A stretch of DNA of 64,000 nucleotides from a virus. The DNA lies in the IMG/VR virus record IMGVR_UViG_3300017987_000063, positions 26,972 to 90,971 of that record, one strand, 5' to 3'. The translations under genes were made by a program, and so were the position numbers. Numbering within the stretch: the stretch's first letter is position 1; the number at the start of each line of letters is the position of its first letter. A model generated the notes under the pieces. That model did no database searches and was not told where the DNA came from. It was given only the letters and a program-made list of their open reading frames with translations. Below, in pieces: positions 609-27,012 of the stretch.

Positions 609-637
609 AGAATAGCATATATATTTAAAAATGTCAA
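609..637 (-). promoter_or_regulatory. Sigma-70-type promoter (TTGACA-N17-TATTCT)
   Basis: On the minus strand TTGACA (637-632) is followed 17 nt later by TATTCT (614-609), preceded by TGC (extended -10). The spacer is the same AT-rich run seen at the other early promoters. The helicase stop codon TGA lies inside the -35 hexamer. It drives the helix-turn-helix gene. Confidence 0.75.
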
Positions 638-3321
638 GTCCCTTGCCCTGTTTTTTGCAATTTGGCATAAATAAGTTTCCTGTTAAGCTGCCAGTCTTCG
701 CAAACCGGAAGTTCGGTATCCAGTATATCGGTAACCACAGGCTCCTTTTTCTCCGCATAATCCCTCAGAATCCTTCCCACTGGTTGCTCCACGTCCACCG
801 CCGGAGTCGCCATGAGCAGGGTATCCAGCCTCGGAATATCCAGCCCTTCTTTCGCCATCTGGTATGTCGCCAGCACAATGTGCGCCTCATTCTCGCTAAA
901 CTCCATCATGGTCGCGCTTTCCCCGCCGATGTATCGCCCGACCTTGAGCCAGTCATGCGCCGCCAGCATTTGCTCCAGAATTCCGACCTGCTCGCGCCGC
1001 TCCGTCAACACCAGCACGCTCCGGCCTGCCTTTGCCGCGTTTACAAGCTCTCCGGCGATCATGCGGTTCCTGCTTTCGCGCTTGGCTATGTCGGTAATCA
1101 AAGCAGACCTGCGCTTCTTGTTATACTCCCACAGGCCGGTATTTTTATTCTTGGAGCCATACTTTCGCAGGGTATAAGGGCCGTTAAACCGGATATAACG
1201 AATCTTCGGAGCCAGATACCGGACACCAGACTCGGCGAGAATCGGCCCAATGTGGGCATAAAGCAGGGGCATCATTCCATCCTTCCGGCGAGGGGTAGCC
1301 GTAACCCCCACCCTGTACGTTGAAGGAAACATGGTTATCACCTTCTGCCACTCCGCCGCGCCGTACCGGTGACAATTATGGGCAACTACGCCATTCCCTA
1401 CAAAGTTATGATTCCCCTCAACTGTCAAATCATAAACGTCCCTGCATCCTGCAGGGGTAATGGATTGAATCTGTTTTATACCGCATTTCGGGGATGATAA
1501 AAAGGGCGATTTTTCCGATGAAAATGGCGGACATTCCGGTTCGCATGCTAATATTCCAATGCCTTCCCGTCCAGCGGACTTCGGAAATAATGCCTTTTTC
1601 CTCCAGCCACGCCCTAATAAGCTGATTTTCTTGTTTTGAATACCCCTCAGTATGTAAAGTAACTTGCCCATTTTGAGCGGAGCCATCGTCCATAAACCAC
1701 CAAGCCATTCCTTCATCTGATATATTATTGAGCCATTGTTCAGTAACCCGCTTTTTCCCTGTTTTTCTGCAAATTTCCCAAATTTCTTCCAGAACTGGTT
1801 GCGTTGCAGATACCGCCCGTATAAGCGGCCCTCCCCACCCCCCATTTTCCACCTGTTTAACTTTGAAAGCAAGGCATGATAATTTCTTTGCCTTATAAAA
1901 TACCCAAGCCGCCTGTCGGATACTGTGCTGAAACAGTAATCGAGGCCCCCGCGCTGTCCTGTGGGGTCTATTAATACACCCATCTCCCAACAAGGTACCG
2001 AGAATAAGCCCTTTAATGCCCTTAATATCTTTGCACTCAATGACACCTCGCCGGTTATGCCCCAATTTATATTCAGGCCAGTCAATCTTTTTACACCGCT
2101 TCTTTTTATAATATTCCCAATCCAATTCAATACGCTCGCCGCACCCGCATTTACAATATGGGGCAGTTGCTTTCCATATTTCAATCCTTTCCACCCAGTC
2201 AACCCTTCTCCGTAAATCTCTCGTGTGTCCCTGTAACCGCCTTCGCTCCCTACCCCGCGCATCAAATTTGAACAGTGTTTTTCCACATCCGCAGGCGCAC
2301 TCAATAAGAACATTTTCGGCTTTAGCTCTCGCGCCTCTCGCCATCCATCTACTGTCAACACTCGATGCTCCGGCGTACATATCACGCTCGTCCCGTCCGT
2401 AAACTGGATTTTCAGGGTCTGCCGCTTTCCTCTCGGTAACCATGCCAATATTCTCCTATACTCAAAGGTAGATCGTGTTTCATTGAATGATAGCACTAAA
2501 GAGGCTTTTTCGCAACTAGCTATTGGCATACTCCCTTGTTCGGTTATAACCCTCGTATCCCCTGCCACGCACTCGTCAAAGATAACAGTCCCGAACTCCC
2601 TGAATAACTGCTCCGGATAGGCTTCCCTCCCCCGCTCGACCAGCGATTGAATCATGGCCACCGCGACCTTAACATCGCTTCCCCACTCGCACCTGTCCTG
2701 CTGGATAAGCCCTATTTCCTCCCGCGCAAGCCCGCAAAAGCTCTGAAAAGTTTCAACCCACTGGTTGTATAAAAATTCTTTATGCACCAGAACGACCGGT
2801 TTCCTGCCAAGTTTCGCCGCAATATCCGCTCCCACTACTGTTTTACCGAAGCCCGGCGGAGCGCAAAGGATGCCTCCATGACACCCGCTGCCTATTCCTT
2901 CATGAAGCTCCCGCAGGAAACTGTCCCGCACCTTGACCTGCGCCCCCCTGTGCTTCCACGCGCTTGCCTTTAGCTCGTCAAAGGTAAATCCAGCCGCCGC
3001 CCCAATAACCGTCTTATCCTGCACCCTATCCTTCGTGGTGTTCGCCAGTAAATCATATCCGAACACGCGGGGCAGACACAAATAGCCGTTCTCCTCCTGC
3101 CATCCGTAGACCTCGGTTTGCTCTTGGGTCATGTAATCGGTAATGGTGAACGTAAGACGGGGTTTGATTATGCTTTCGATAAACCAGCCTTTCGGTCGCC
3201 GCAAGCGCAGCCATTCGGCCATCTTGTTATCAGTCGCTCCTTCCAGCCCGCGCCGCGCAAGCTCTGCATCGCGCCCGACCAGTCCCCCGTAGCCTTTTCT
3301 TATGCTTTTGCCTCTTTCCAT
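634..3321 (-). CDS. Superfamily II DNA/RNA helicase, interrupted by an intein
   Basis: About 895 aa from ATG 3321 (GGAG just upstream; the frame is open further, to 3429, but that would bury more of the polymerase gene). It resembles UvsW/Rad25-like ATP-dependent helicases. It has Walker A APPGFGKT at residues ~154-161, 'VVLVHKEFLYNQW' (motif Ia region), motif II split by an intein, 'VTATPRR' (motif III) and the C-terminal RecA domain with 'QPVGRILRD' (motif VI). Removing the intein joins IFDE to CHRYGA and recreates a DECH box, so the unspliced protein should be inactive. Likely role: unwinding or branch migration in phage replication and recombination. It overlaps the end of the polymerase gene by 22 nt and is probably co-transcribed with it. 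Confidence 0.88.
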   Translation of the reverse strand: MERGKSIRKGYGGLVGRDAELARRGLEGATDNKMAEWLRLRRPKGWFIESIIKPRLTFTITDYMTQEQTEVYGWQEENGYLCLPRVFGYDLLANTTKDRVQDKTVIGAAAGFTFDELKASAWKHRGAQVKVRDSFLRELHEGIGSGCHGGILCAPPGFGKTVVGADIAAKLGRKPVVLVHKEFLYNQWVETFQSFCGLAREEIGLIQQDRCEWGSDVKVAVAMIQSLVERGREAYPEQLFREFGTVIFDECVAGDTRVITEQGSMPIASCEKASLVLSFNETRSTFEYRRILAWLPRGKRQTLKIQFTDGTSVICTPEHRVLTVDGWREARELKPKMFLLSAPADVEKHCSNLMRGVGSEGGYRDTREIYGEGLTGWKGLKYGKQLPHIVNAGAASVLNWIGNIIKRSGVKRLTGLNINWGITGEVSLSAKILRALKGLFSVPCWEMGVLIDPTGQRGGLDYCFSTVSDRRLGYFIRQRNYHALLSKLNRWKMGGGEGRLYGRYLQRNQFWKKFGKFAEKQGKSGLLNNGSIIYQMKEWLGGLWTMAPLKMGKLLYILRGIQNKKISLLGRGWRKKALFPKSAGREGIGILACEPECPPFSSEKSPFLSSPKCGIKQIQSITPAGCRDVYDLTVEGNHNFVGNGVVAHNCHRYGAAEWQKVITMFPSTYRVGVTATPRRKDGMMPLLYAHIGPILAESGVRYLAPKIRYIRFNGPYTLRKYGSKNKNTGLWEYNKKRRSALITDIAKRESRNRMIAGELVNAAKAGRSVLVLTERREQVGILEQMLAAHDWLKVGRYIGGESATMMEFSENEAHIVLATYQMAKEGLDIPRLDTLLMATPAVDVEQPVGRILRDYAEKKEPVVTDILDTELPVCEDWQLNRKLIYAKLQKTGQGT
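1375..2571 (-). mobile_element. Intein in helicase motif II (DECH box), 399 aa
   Basis: It starts at Cys (2571-2569), with N-terminal splicing block 'CVAGDTRVITEQGSMPI' and block B 'TPEHRVLT'. It ends with 'DLTVEGNHNFVGNGVVAHN' followed by Cys+1 of the extein. The splicing blocks occupy roughly the first 100 and last 30 residues. The middle ~270 residues show no LAGLIDADG motif in this frame. Instead, a separate LAGLIDADG gene is encoded there in another frame (see 1430-2443). Confidence 0.85.
1430..2443 (-). CDS. LAGLIDADG homing endonuclease nested out of frame in the helicase intein
   Basis: 337 aa in a frame offset from the helicase/intein frame. It has two Cys-rich segments ('CACGCGKTLFKF' and 'CKCGCGERIELD', each followed by a His), then the two dodecapeptide motifs 'GLILGTLLGDGCINRP' and 'GMAWWFMDDGSAQNGQ', the second followed by 'TEGYSKQENQLIRAWL'. 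This is the standard layout of a two-motif LAGLIDADG nuclease. The start at ATG 2443 has AGGAG ~9 nt upstream, so it can be translated on its own. The first ~45 residues overlap intein block B and may not belong to the ancestral enzyme. The last codons overlap the coding sequence of the C-terminal splicing blocks. Presumed function: cutting an intein-less helicase allele to spread the element. Confidence 0.82.
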   Translation of the reverse strand: MVTERKAADPENPVYGRDERDMYAGASSVDSRWMARGARAKAENVLIECACGCGKTLFKFDARGRERRRLQGHTRDLRRRVDWVERIEIWKATAPYCKCGCGERIELDWEYYKKKRCKKIDWPEYKLGHNRRGVIECKDIKGIKGLILGTLLGDGCINRPHRTARGPRLLFQHSIRQAAWVFYKAKKLSCLAFKVKQVENGGWGGPLIRAVSATQPVLEEIWEICRKTGKKRVTEQWLNNISDEGMAWWFMDDGSAQNGQVTLHTEGYSKQENQLIRAWLEEKGIISEVRWTGRHWNISMRTGMSAIFIGKIALFIIPEMRYKTDSIHYPCRMQGRL

Positions 3322-6206
3322 GTCACTCCATGCCCTACATCCGCAATCAGGGGCAATTTCAAGGTAACGCATGTCTCCATAATACCCTTTAATTCCCTTG
3401 CCACTATCTCCGCTTTGTCCTCCGGGCACTCCACCAGAATTTCATCATGCACCTGTAAAATCTGTCTCGCGCCCCATTTGGATTGTTTTTTAAAGAAATT
3501 GCGCTGTGCAATCTTGACCATATCCGCCGCGCTGTTATGCACTACCAGCCCATTTGCCATAAATCTGCTCGTAGGACTGTTTAAGGCATCATACATCCGT
3601 ATTTTCTCGCCTGTAAAAATCACCCTTTTAACCCTGTTACAATTTCCTTGTATATTTCCATATTTAGCTAGACCGGACTGCCCTTGTACTGCCATCCTAT
3701 TTTTCGAAGGGTTCAAAAATCCAATCCTTTTTATAAAATCAAGATTGAATTTTGTGGATACCTGCACCACTGTCCTGTCATCTGGATAGTGTCGGACGCG
3801 GGAGCGAATCCCGAAAAGTAACAACGCCTGCTGCACGTCCCTTGCCCACTTTTCTTTATATTTATGCTTTCCAAAAACCAGAGTAATAGCCTTTCCCGAT
3901 ACCCCCCCATCACCATCAAAAAGTCCTCTTAAATAGCCGGAAATAGCCTCATAAGATGTTAAAACATTCCACGGAATCCCCCTCTTAACCCCCAATAACA
4001 AAGCATCTCGCGCCAGCATAGCGGAATCTACATACAGCCAGTAAATATTCTGTTTTCCCTTCCTTTTATGTGTCCACTCTCTGACTTTTCCGAATGGTGT
4101 CAGGGCTTTTTTTAGCTTGTTTAAAAGTCCTCTCTCATGCTCCGCTACCAGCCAGCCGACCGCTTTTTCGGGGGAAATTGTACCATCCGAAGCCAACCTG
4201 CCCAAAAGCATCCCTAAAGTAACATCGTCTTTAATTAAAGAAAAAGAAAGCTGTTTATCGTTTGCTACCCCTTTAATCGCTTTCCAATGTGTTTTTCGCG
4301 GGTTTATAGGCCACCTTTTTTCAAATTTAAAACCAACCTCCACGCCATTGCCCGTTAAAAGCCTCTCTACCGCCTTAAACTCTTTTGGAGTTTTCCACAA
4401 TTTATGCCCCGCCTCATTTACAGTTAAAAAACAATGGTCTGGACTACAGATTATTTTATTCCCATCGTAAAAATCCACGATTACCTTATCCTTTAGGCCA
4501 GAATCTACTACCTCCACAGGCACATACTTGTTTCCATCCCACAATTCAATATTTTTTCCCGCCTGCCTTTCCATGCAAGTCATACCTATACCCCTTGCAA
4601 AAATACGAGTATCGCCCCCCAAACATCCCTGAATTATACTGTTAATGGCCTGCCGCTGCTCCGCCCATTTTCGCTTTCCTTTTAACTTGAGCCAGTCGGG
4701 GAACCTGCGCCTCCGGCCTGTAACCGTGGAAACATACTGCTGCTTATCGAGAATCATCGCCACCCGATCATGGAACCTTTTTACTCCTTTGTAAGCGGTA
4801 AAATAGCGGTTCCGCATCTCCACAGCCTTCTCATCCGTCACATCCGGCGGTTGGCGACTCTTGAGCCTGTAAGTGTTTAACTGGCGAGCCAGCGTCGGCC
4901 CGCTCATCCCGTAAATGAGCCCGAAGTTTACTGTTTTACCCTGCTGTCTGGTACACCCACAAAAGTCCCCTGTCCGCTGGTGTACGTCCTCACCCTTGAG
5001 ATAGGCTTCCATCAGCAGCGGGTCTTGCGACCAGTGCGCCATCAGTCGTAGCTCCAACTGGCTGAAATCCGCGCACACAAACTTATGCCCCTGCTTGGCC
5101 TTAAACAGTACCCGCAAAAGCTCGCGCTCAATATTCTGCATATTAGGGTCTTTACTCGCGAGCCGCCCGCTAACTGTCCCTGTGTGCAGGAAGGTAGAGC
5201 GTATCCGACCATCGTTTACCGCCGCCCACTCCTTCAACGGCAGCAGGAAACTGTTAATCATGTGGCTCTTACCGCGCCACTCAATAATCTCCCAAAATAA
5301 AGGGTCGTCAAACTGAAAAGCCAGCAGAACGTTCGCCGCCGTAGACCACTCGCCGGACGCGGTCTGCTTCATCCAATCCTTCGGCTTAAATTTAAGGTCG
5401 TCAAAAAGTATCTTGCTCAACTGCTGCGTCGAGCCTATATTAAACGCTTTCCCCGCCTTTTTATAAATCTCTGTCTCGTGTGCCTTGATTTGGGCCTGAA
5501 GGTCGTCAATCATGGCATCCGCCGCCGGAACGTCCAGCATAACACCCGCAAGCTCCATATCGGCAAGCACCCAAACATACTCCATTTCAAGGGTATTAAA
5601 AACTTTCCACAGCTTTTGCTCAACCAGCGCAGGGTAGTATTTATCCCATAACAGGAGAGGAGCCCGCACGTCCTCGCAGGCATATTCCAGCATTTTTTCG
5701 CTGCTGTCCTCAAAAAGATTCCCCGCGCTCGCCTTTTCATACCCCACCATATTAAGGTCAAGATGGTCTTTCGCGCAGGGCTTCAGGCCATGTCGCTTCC
5801 GGTTCTCGTCCAGCAGCCAGTCCGCTATCATGGTATCCCGCAACACCCACCCGATGTTAATCCCCTCAAACCCATGCTCCAGTTTTAACCGCTTGTTATG
5901 AATAACCAGACACTCAATATCAAACTTTAAATTATGCCCCACAACCGCCCTGTCGCAGGCGAATACCTCTTTAAGGGTAGTCATAGCCTCCAGCAGGGAA
6001 AAAGGCCCGTGTGCGGGTTTTAGGGCTACATAATACTGGTCTTCCTCTACCCCGAAGGCGAAGCTTGCAAGCTCGTTCCTGAAGGGGTCGAGTTTAGCCG
6101 CCTTATTAGGCCCCTCGCACTCCACGTCGAAGCTAAAAATATCGGCTTTAAGGAGCCGCTCCTTTAACTGGAGCAGCCCCTCTGCCGTTGTTACGTTATG
6201 TTTCAT
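3300..6206 (-). CDS. Family A DNA polymerase with 3'-5' exonuclease domain, interrupted by an intein
   Basis: 968 aa. Residues ~22-190 are a DEDD proofreading domain ('FDVECEG', 'VGHNLKFDIECL', 'YACEDVRAPLLLWDKYY'). The polymerase domain follows, with motif A 'VCADFSQLELRL' (~377-388), motif B 'RQQGKTVNFGLIYG' (~420-433) and motif C 'QVHDEILVE' near the C-terminus. An intein separates 'NSIIQG' from 'SAADMVK', a highly conserved helix of the domain. It is the replicative polymerase. The start at 6206 overlaps the preceding stop (ATGA). It is probably transcribed from the promoter at 7319-7347 together with the SSB and helicase genes. Confidence 0.93.
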   Translation of the reverse strand: MKHNVTTAEGLLQLKERLLKADIFSFDVECEGPNKAAKLDPFRNELASFAFGVEEDQYYVALKPAHGPFSLLEAMTTLKEVFACDRAVVGHNLKFDIECLVIHNKRLKLEHGFEGINIGWVLRDTMIADWLLDENRKRHGLKPCAKDHLDLNMVGYEKASAGNLFEDSSEKMLEYACEDVRAPLLLWDKYYPALVEQKLWKVFNTLEMEYVWVLADMELAGVMLDVPAADAMIDDLQAQIKAHETEIYKKAGKAFNIGSTQQLSKILFDDLKFKPKDWMKQTASGEWSTAANVLLAFQFDDPLFWEIIEWRGKSHMINSFLLPLKEWAAVNDGRIRSTFLHTGTVSGRLASKDPNMQNIERELLRVLFKAKQGHKFVCADFSQLELRLMAHWSQDPLLMEAYLKGEDVHQRTGDFCGCTRQQGKTVNFGLIYGMSGPTLARQLNTYRLKSRQPPDVTDEKAVEMRNRYFTAYKGVKRFHDRVAMILDKQQYVSTVTGRRRRFPDWLKLKGKRKWAEQRQAINSIIQGCLGGDTRIFARGIGMTCMERQAGKNIELWDGNKYVPVEVVDSGLKDKVIVDFYDGNKIICSPDHCFLTVNEAGHKLWKTPKEFKAVERLLTGNGVEVGFKFEKRWPINPRKTHWKAIKGVANDKQLSFSLIKDDVTLGMLLGRLASDGTISPEKAVGWLVAEHERGLLNKLKKALTPFGKVREWTHKRKGKQNIYWLYVDSAMLARDALLLGVKRGIPWNVLTSYEAISGYLRGLFDGDGGVSGKAITLVFGKHKYKEKWARDVQQALLLFGIRSRVRHYPDDRTVVQVSTKFNLDFIKRIGFLNPSKNRMAVQGQSGLAKYGNIQGNCNRVKRVIFTGEKIRMYDALNSPTSRFMANGLVVHNSAADMVKIAQRNFFKKQSKWGARQILQVHDEILVECPEDKAEIVARELKGIMETCVTLKLPLIADVGHGVTWKEAKA
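3534..4625 (-). mobile_element. Intein with in-frame LAGLIDADG endonuclease in DNA polymerase, 364 aa
   Basis: Cys1 at 4625 starts 'CLGGDTRIFARG'. The element ends 'SRFMANGLVVHN' before Ser+1 of the extein (SAADMVK). Two LAGLIDADG-type motifs are in frame: 'TLGMLLGRLASDGTISP' and 'GYLRGLFDGDGGVSG'. This is therefore a conventional bifunctional intein, in contrast to the helicase element. Confidence 0.92.
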
Positions 6207-26965: not shown

Positions 26966-27012
26966 TACCTTTCCAGAATTATTTGCCGAAAAATTGCAGA
27001 TTCTTGGGGAAA

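Follow-up and report, generated by a model that had tools for sequence, protein, structure and literature searches.

An open intein frame overlapping a predicted out-of-frame homing endonuclease gene in a phage helicase

Introduction

How can a homing endonuclease gene lie within an intein and be out of frame with it, while the host gene stays open throughout? The question is raised by a helicase gene in 64,000 nucleotides of viral DNA (positions 26,972 to 90,971 of IMG/VR record IMGVR_UViG_3300017987_000063, part of a 91-kb viral contig), here called the window. Intein endonucleases have been described in review as in-frame fusions (PMC3943268). Conventional bifunctional inteins (PI-SceI, PI-PfuI and that of the KLEP7 RNA ligase) resemble the window intein in that a LAGLIDADG endonuclease occupies the usual slot between blocks B and F, with a HINT splicing half on either side, and in that the insertion point is a conserved motif of an enzyme acting on nucleic acids. 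In the window, however, the endonuclease is a separate open reading frame (ORF), in another frame and outside the intein polypeptide.

We read the locus as a dual-frame mobile intein, in which a cis-splicing mini-intein and an independently translated homing endonuclease would occupy the same DNA, and give this reading a probability of about 0.88. One open frame encodes the two helicase exteins and, between them, a HINT N half, a linker and a HINT C half; a second, overlapping frame of the same strand encodes a separate I-SceI-like endonuclease, whose ORF has a start codon and ribosome site to itself. The dual-frame layout is widespread and old, and the intein frame is selected merely to remain stop-free over the nuclease gene.

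Results and discussion

The two frames of the window

Pfam places the SF2 helicase domains of the window and an Intein_splicing match (E 1e-15) in a single frame (Table 1). The intein begins with Cys (CVAGDT...) and ends with His-Asn (VVAHN), followed by a +1 Cys (VVAHN|CH, the bar marking the junction); together with the TxxH of block B (TPEH), these are the residues of a class 1 intein. With the intein excised, the helicase and an intein-less helicase of a Rhizobium phage can be aligned gaplessly through FDE|CHR, at 38% identity. An AlphaFold model of the intein frame has two good HINT halves separated by an unfolded linker, and matches mini-inteins over both halves (Foldseek E 6e-8; PDB matches). 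These are mini-inteins of DnaX, DnaB and RecA type, from which the window intein differs in its unstructured linker of about 260 residues, the other-frame reading of the nuclease gene. The helicase/intein frame has no LAGLIDADG family match in Pfam, and so lacks the in-frame endonuclease of a conventional intein.

The nuclease ORF begins 128 nt inside the intein, giving a frame offset of +2. Its product belongs to the LAGLIDADG_2 (I-SceI-like) family by profile (E 3e-27 and 2e-32 to I-SceI and I-WcaI, respectively), by fold (a good model, with TM scores of 0.72-0.73 to the same two proteins, normalised to target) and by the presence of both catalytic Asp motifs. Residues D154, D252 and D253 are unchanged across 14 LAGLIDADG_2 nuclease sequences. 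Whereas I-SceI and I-WcaI are group-I-intron homing endonucleases, the window nuclease is nested in an intein and carries two CxCxC...H motifs ahead of the catalytic domain. The conserved part of the nuclease starts at the first of these, roughly where the N splicing half stops.

A sequence-only reading of the window had proposed that a LAGLIDADG gene lies out of frame inside an open helicase intein, and that the intein linker is that gene translated in the wrong frame. Both proposals hold: the intein (1375-2571) and the nuclease ORF (1430-2443) are offset by +2 with Pfam domains in each frame, and they share 288 linker codons; the intein model is unfolded over residues 101-361.

Table 1. Features of the helicase locus, in window coordinates
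Feature	Position	Strand	Evidence
SF2 (UvsW/ResIII-like) helicase ORF, intein host	634..3429	-	Pfam: ResIII E 4e-19, Helicase_C, Intein_splicing
Intein, 399 codons, between E and C of the helicase DECH box	1375..2571	-	PF14890, boundaries, PDB mini-intein matches
N-terminal splicing (HINT) half, blocks A-B	2272..2571	-	AlphaFold residues 1-100 mostly pLDDT 65-92
C-terminal splicing half, blocks F-G	1375..1488	-	AlphaFold residues 362-399 pLDDT 75-93
Intein linker, wrong-frame, stop-free reading of the nuclease gene	1489..2271	-	0 stops; residues 101-361 pLDDT <50, block means 21-32
Shine-Dalgarno AGGAGA of the predicted nuclease, within N splicing half coding (Arg-Arg)	2452..2457	-	Sequence; duplex energy -7.3
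LAGLIDADG_2 homing endonuclease ORF, 337 aa, offset +2 to intein	1430..2443	-	PF03161 E 5e-25
First nuclease CxCxC...H cysteine motif	2225..2299	-	Also in L100, L102, L103
Second nuclease CxCxC...H cysteine motif	2057..2155	-	Sequence comparison
LAGLIDADG_2 catalytic domain, motifs ILGTLLGDG and MAWWFMDDG	1526..2008	-	Pfam span

Openness of the intein frame

In the window the intein frame has no stop over the shared codons and the third frame has 26. Two kinds of shuffle were used for comparison. When synonymous codons of the nuclease were permuted, leaving its protein sequence and the count of each codon unchanged (nuclease-synonymous shuffles), 10.0 stops were expected in the intein frame; codon-order shuffles gave 11.7. 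Both values are near the 13 or so that the sequence-only reading had estimated for random sequence, and the fraction of stop-free shuffles was 0.000 of 1000 for either kind.

The same was seen when the nested loci described in the next section were pooled, 71 of the 73 being counted (L112 and L150 were excluded, the boundaries of their N halves being unsure). Their 16,319 intein-frame codons contain no stop, whereas the nuclease-synonymous shuffles predict 716 and the third frame holds 1,331; the nested class is stop-free by definition, but the nuclease-based searches that produced it were blind to the intein frame and met few exceptions. Each locus would be expected to hold about 2-21 wrong-frame stops in its linker, and even loci of 28-31% GC keep the intein frame open. 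In both the window and the pooled set, therefore, the second frame is open beyond what codon use in the first accounts for, as is expected of same-strand overlapping genes. Fractured relatives serve as a control: Amona, Ymer, AN_ECEAS, L073, L075, L082 and S16 have 10-35 stops in the same region and frame (S16, locus L016, has 17), and the split locus L087 has one. Since stops are absent from the nested loci and plentiful in the fractured ones, continuity of the intein is under selection.

Recurrence in other phages

A tblastn search with the window nuclease led to Xanthomonas phage FoX3, where the matching region lies inside an intact, annotated 'putative DNA helicase'; as in the window, the intein is inserted at DE|CH and the nuclease offset is +2. 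At this site the intein of Corynebacterium phage phi673 holds a different nuclease, Vsr/DUF559-like and at offset +1, and nucleases of that type are likewise hidden in Pseudomonas phage MR14 and in Vibrio phages CP-T1, 104E43.1, 1.088.O, 1.194.O and 159E43-1b. Alignments of both nuclease families served to scan IMG/VR, and the loci were sorted with home-made hidden Markov models of the splicing halves. This gave 73 non-redundant nested loci, 65 with Vsr/DUF559-like and eight with LAGLIDADG_2 nucleases. The Vsr-like loci comprise, besides those 65 (all at +1), four split cases and none in frame; among LAGLIDADG_2 loci, five are nested at +2 and three at +1, three are split and 13 are in frame. 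In nearly all nested cases the host is a helicase-type P-loop protein and the insertion site DE|C. Scanning bacterial genome contigs with the alignments yielded seven loci, five of them nested at offset +1. In these contig collections only alignments retrieved relatives: scans of viral contigs with single proteins found no near relatives of the window helicase or nuclease, and a single-protein scan of genome contigs gave no match.

Two kinds of departure from the usual intein termini were seen among the loci. L104 and L105, which have a LAGLIDADG_2 nuclease nested at +1, carry the intein in an apparent terminase large subunit (VVIDE|SVRLG...VHN|CQEMN), and it starts with Ser instead of Cys. 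In the Vsr-like loci L081, L084, L088 and L091-L097, from AT-rich phages, the intein ends in Ser-Asn (LVSN|CH), without the penultimate His.

The nested +2 loci (the window, FoX3, L100, L102 and L103) group together as a clade of the LAGLIDADG_2 tree (support 96/94), and the nested +1 loci form another (94/93). With the Vsr-like group these make at least three combinations of clade and offset, which we read as at least three origins.

The start of the nuclease

AGGAGA sits 8 nt ahead of the nuclease ATG in the window, and nested nuclease ATGs fall within, or near the end of, the N splicing half. Over 55 nested loci, the mean Shine-Dalgarno (SD) strength at nuclease starts is -5.56, compared with -2.88 +/- 0.35 for a null of matched ATGs from the same inteins, an enrichment of 7-8 standard deviations. 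The suggestion that the nuclease has its own start and ribosome site (ATG at 2443, AGGAGA at 2452-2457) is thereby borne out, and the protein is probably made by internal initiation.

Selection on the two frames

The ratio of non-synonymous to synonymous substitution rates (dN/dS, or omega) was estimated in each frame for 14 Vsr-like pairs by overlap-aware counting. The nuclease frame has an omega of 0.07-0.36, indicating purifying selection, while that of the linker is about 0.2, rising to about 1-1.7 with divergence. The two frames are constrained unequally: purifying selection acts on the nuclease protein, whereas the amino acids of the linker drift near-neutrally and only stops are avoided. 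The sequence-only reading, which had supposed both frames to be constrained and proposed dN/dS in each as a check, is upheld for the Vsr-like nucleases and for the stop-free state of the intein frame, with the refinement that linker residues drift, omega being near 1 at larger divergence.

Alternative explanations

It might be supposed that sequencing or assembly frameshifts have displaced an endonuclease that was originally in frame, particularly as in-frame LAGLIDADG_2 inteins do occur, in a dozen cases besides that of the KLEP7 RNA ligase. Such errors would, however, require two compensating indels in each of the 73 loci, with an offset constant within each clade (+2 or +1), and would leave unexplained a wrong-frame linker without the stops expected in it. 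The reads are confirmed by the same layout in FoX3, phi673, MR14, CP-T1 and other isolates and in dozens of independent contigs. Sequencing error was ruled out on the strength of these independent genomes, and we regard its probability as negligible. Nor is it at all likely that the nuclease is a dead relic and the open frame a by-product of chance or composition. Nuclease activity is admittedly known as a prediction only, but the nuclease frame of the Vsr group is under strong purifying selection and the catalytic Asp residues are invariant in the LAGLIDADG_2 set; chance openness has P < ~0.001 for the window with nuclease protein and codons fixed, and loci of 28-31% GC are open too. Both a dead gene and chance openness were rejected.

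Programmed ribosomal frameshifting, which would yield a fusion of N-extein, N-intein and nuclease, has the attraction that offsets of +1 and +2 (equivalent to -1) are both within its reach. Against it stand the nuclease starts themselves, ATGs with strong ribosome sites (e.g. caaaggaggtccaattATG), and the SD enrichment over matched controls, and we consider it unlikely. The halves might instead trans-splice as a split intein, making the continuous frame irrelevant, as the truly fractured relatives at the same site (S16 UvsW, Amona, AN_ECEAS) could suggest; given that the window and 72 further non-redundant loci have no stop between the halves, while the fractured relatives are rich in them, this seems very improbable. 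Some points do weigh against a dual-frame mobile intein. Splicing, nuclease translation, cleavage and homing are steps that we infer from sequence. A codon-usage likelihood fails to tell the three frames apart in the window overlap. Omega was obtained by simple counting, from 14 pairs that are partly non-independent; moreover, the window nuclease had no close relative in the searches, so that dN/dS comes from the Vsr-like group only.

Comparison with known systems

The closest published case is the ShiLan domain of phage methylases, whose HNH endonuclease is out of frame; it lacks both a splicing domain and a detectable ribosome site, and is presumed to remain part of the protein (Arsenault, Gosselin and Gogarten 2025, PMC11855218). 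It shares with the window a homing-type nuclease in the alternate frame of an insertion that leaves the host ORF open. Dual-frame inteins differ in having HINT halves, ribosome sites and other nuclease families (LAGLIDADG_2, Vsr/DUF559-like); in Pfam, the window has a LAGLIDADG_2 and not an HNH nuclease, and an Intein_splicing domain is present. A 2025 preprint by Gosselin, the subject of which is reportedly the 'non-canonical architecture' of actinophage inteins, may anticipate part of our finding.

In 2009 Dassa et al. reportedly described fractured genes in which split inteins occur together with free-standing nucleases. Those of S16 UvsW, Amona and AN_ECEAS share with the window the helicase site and a nuclease ORF that overlaps the intein halves; in Pectobacterium phage Amona and in AN_ECEAS this nuclease is LAGLIDADG_2, as in the window, and both halves are in one register. 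Their host ORFs have many stops and must trans-splice, whereas the window host gene is unbroken, with 0 stops, and so is neither a fractured gene nor a split intein. For a brucellaphage, one sentence mentions an HNH endonuclease, called 'intein-encoded', whose frame differs from that of the large terminase gene in which it lies (PMC4422536). The out-of-frame nuclease is common to that case and ours, and the passage concerned gives neither a splicing-domain nor a frame analysis (PMC4422536).

Mechanism, origin and split relatives

The intein would excise in cis as a mini-intein carrying a long floppy loop. The nuclease, internally initiated, would cut intein-less helicase alleles at DE|CH, and cleavage would lead to copying of the whole element by homing. 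Such elements may have originated when a homing endonuclease gene settled in an intein's endonuclease slot, the mismatched frame being stop-free by luck or selection.

A single stop in the linker, together with a start for the C half, would then suffice to fracture the gene and give a split intein. Split cases occur at two places within the Vsr-like tree, and in same-strand splits both halves are in one register. This agrees with fracture of an originally continuous intein; the independent cases are few, however, and the root is not known. The Vsr-like split locus L087 has one stop only, at intein codon 197, possibly a fresh fracture or an assembly error. Because same-strand halves keep register and L087 has a single stop, dual-frame inteins can be proposed as a stepping stone to split inteins. 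More broadly, we lean slightly towards seeing them as a distinct, widespread phage class of at least three independent origins, with the nuclease uncoupled from splicing, open to any homing endonuclease family and able to serve as that stepping stone.

This layout accounts for annotated phage 'mini-inteins' with long, meaningless linkers. Protein-based annotation misses out-of-frame nucleases: in the isolate records of continuous cases that we examined, the helicase-type protein alone is annotated. As a natural and long-lived system of overlapping genes, replicated dozens of times, dual-frame inteins also lend themselves to gauging two-frame constraint, and they provide a testable path to split inteins.

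Other arrangements were seen at helicase sites. Yersinia phage fHe-Yen9-02 (L006) has a split intein at the same site with its halves in different registers, and the ORF between them, on the opposite strand, has weak DUF7487 and REase matches. The split-intein helicase of Salmonella phage S16 (UvsW; L016) has an overlapping nuclease ORF with weak TnsA-like and NUMOD3 matches. In the window itself, the helicase start codon is uncertain, the ORF overlapping the 3' end of the upstream polymerase gene. This adjoining family-A DNA polymerase (3300-6206, - strand) holds a conventional intein with an in-frame LAGLIDADG_3 domain (Pfam), and the window thus has two differently built inteins in neighbouring replication genes.
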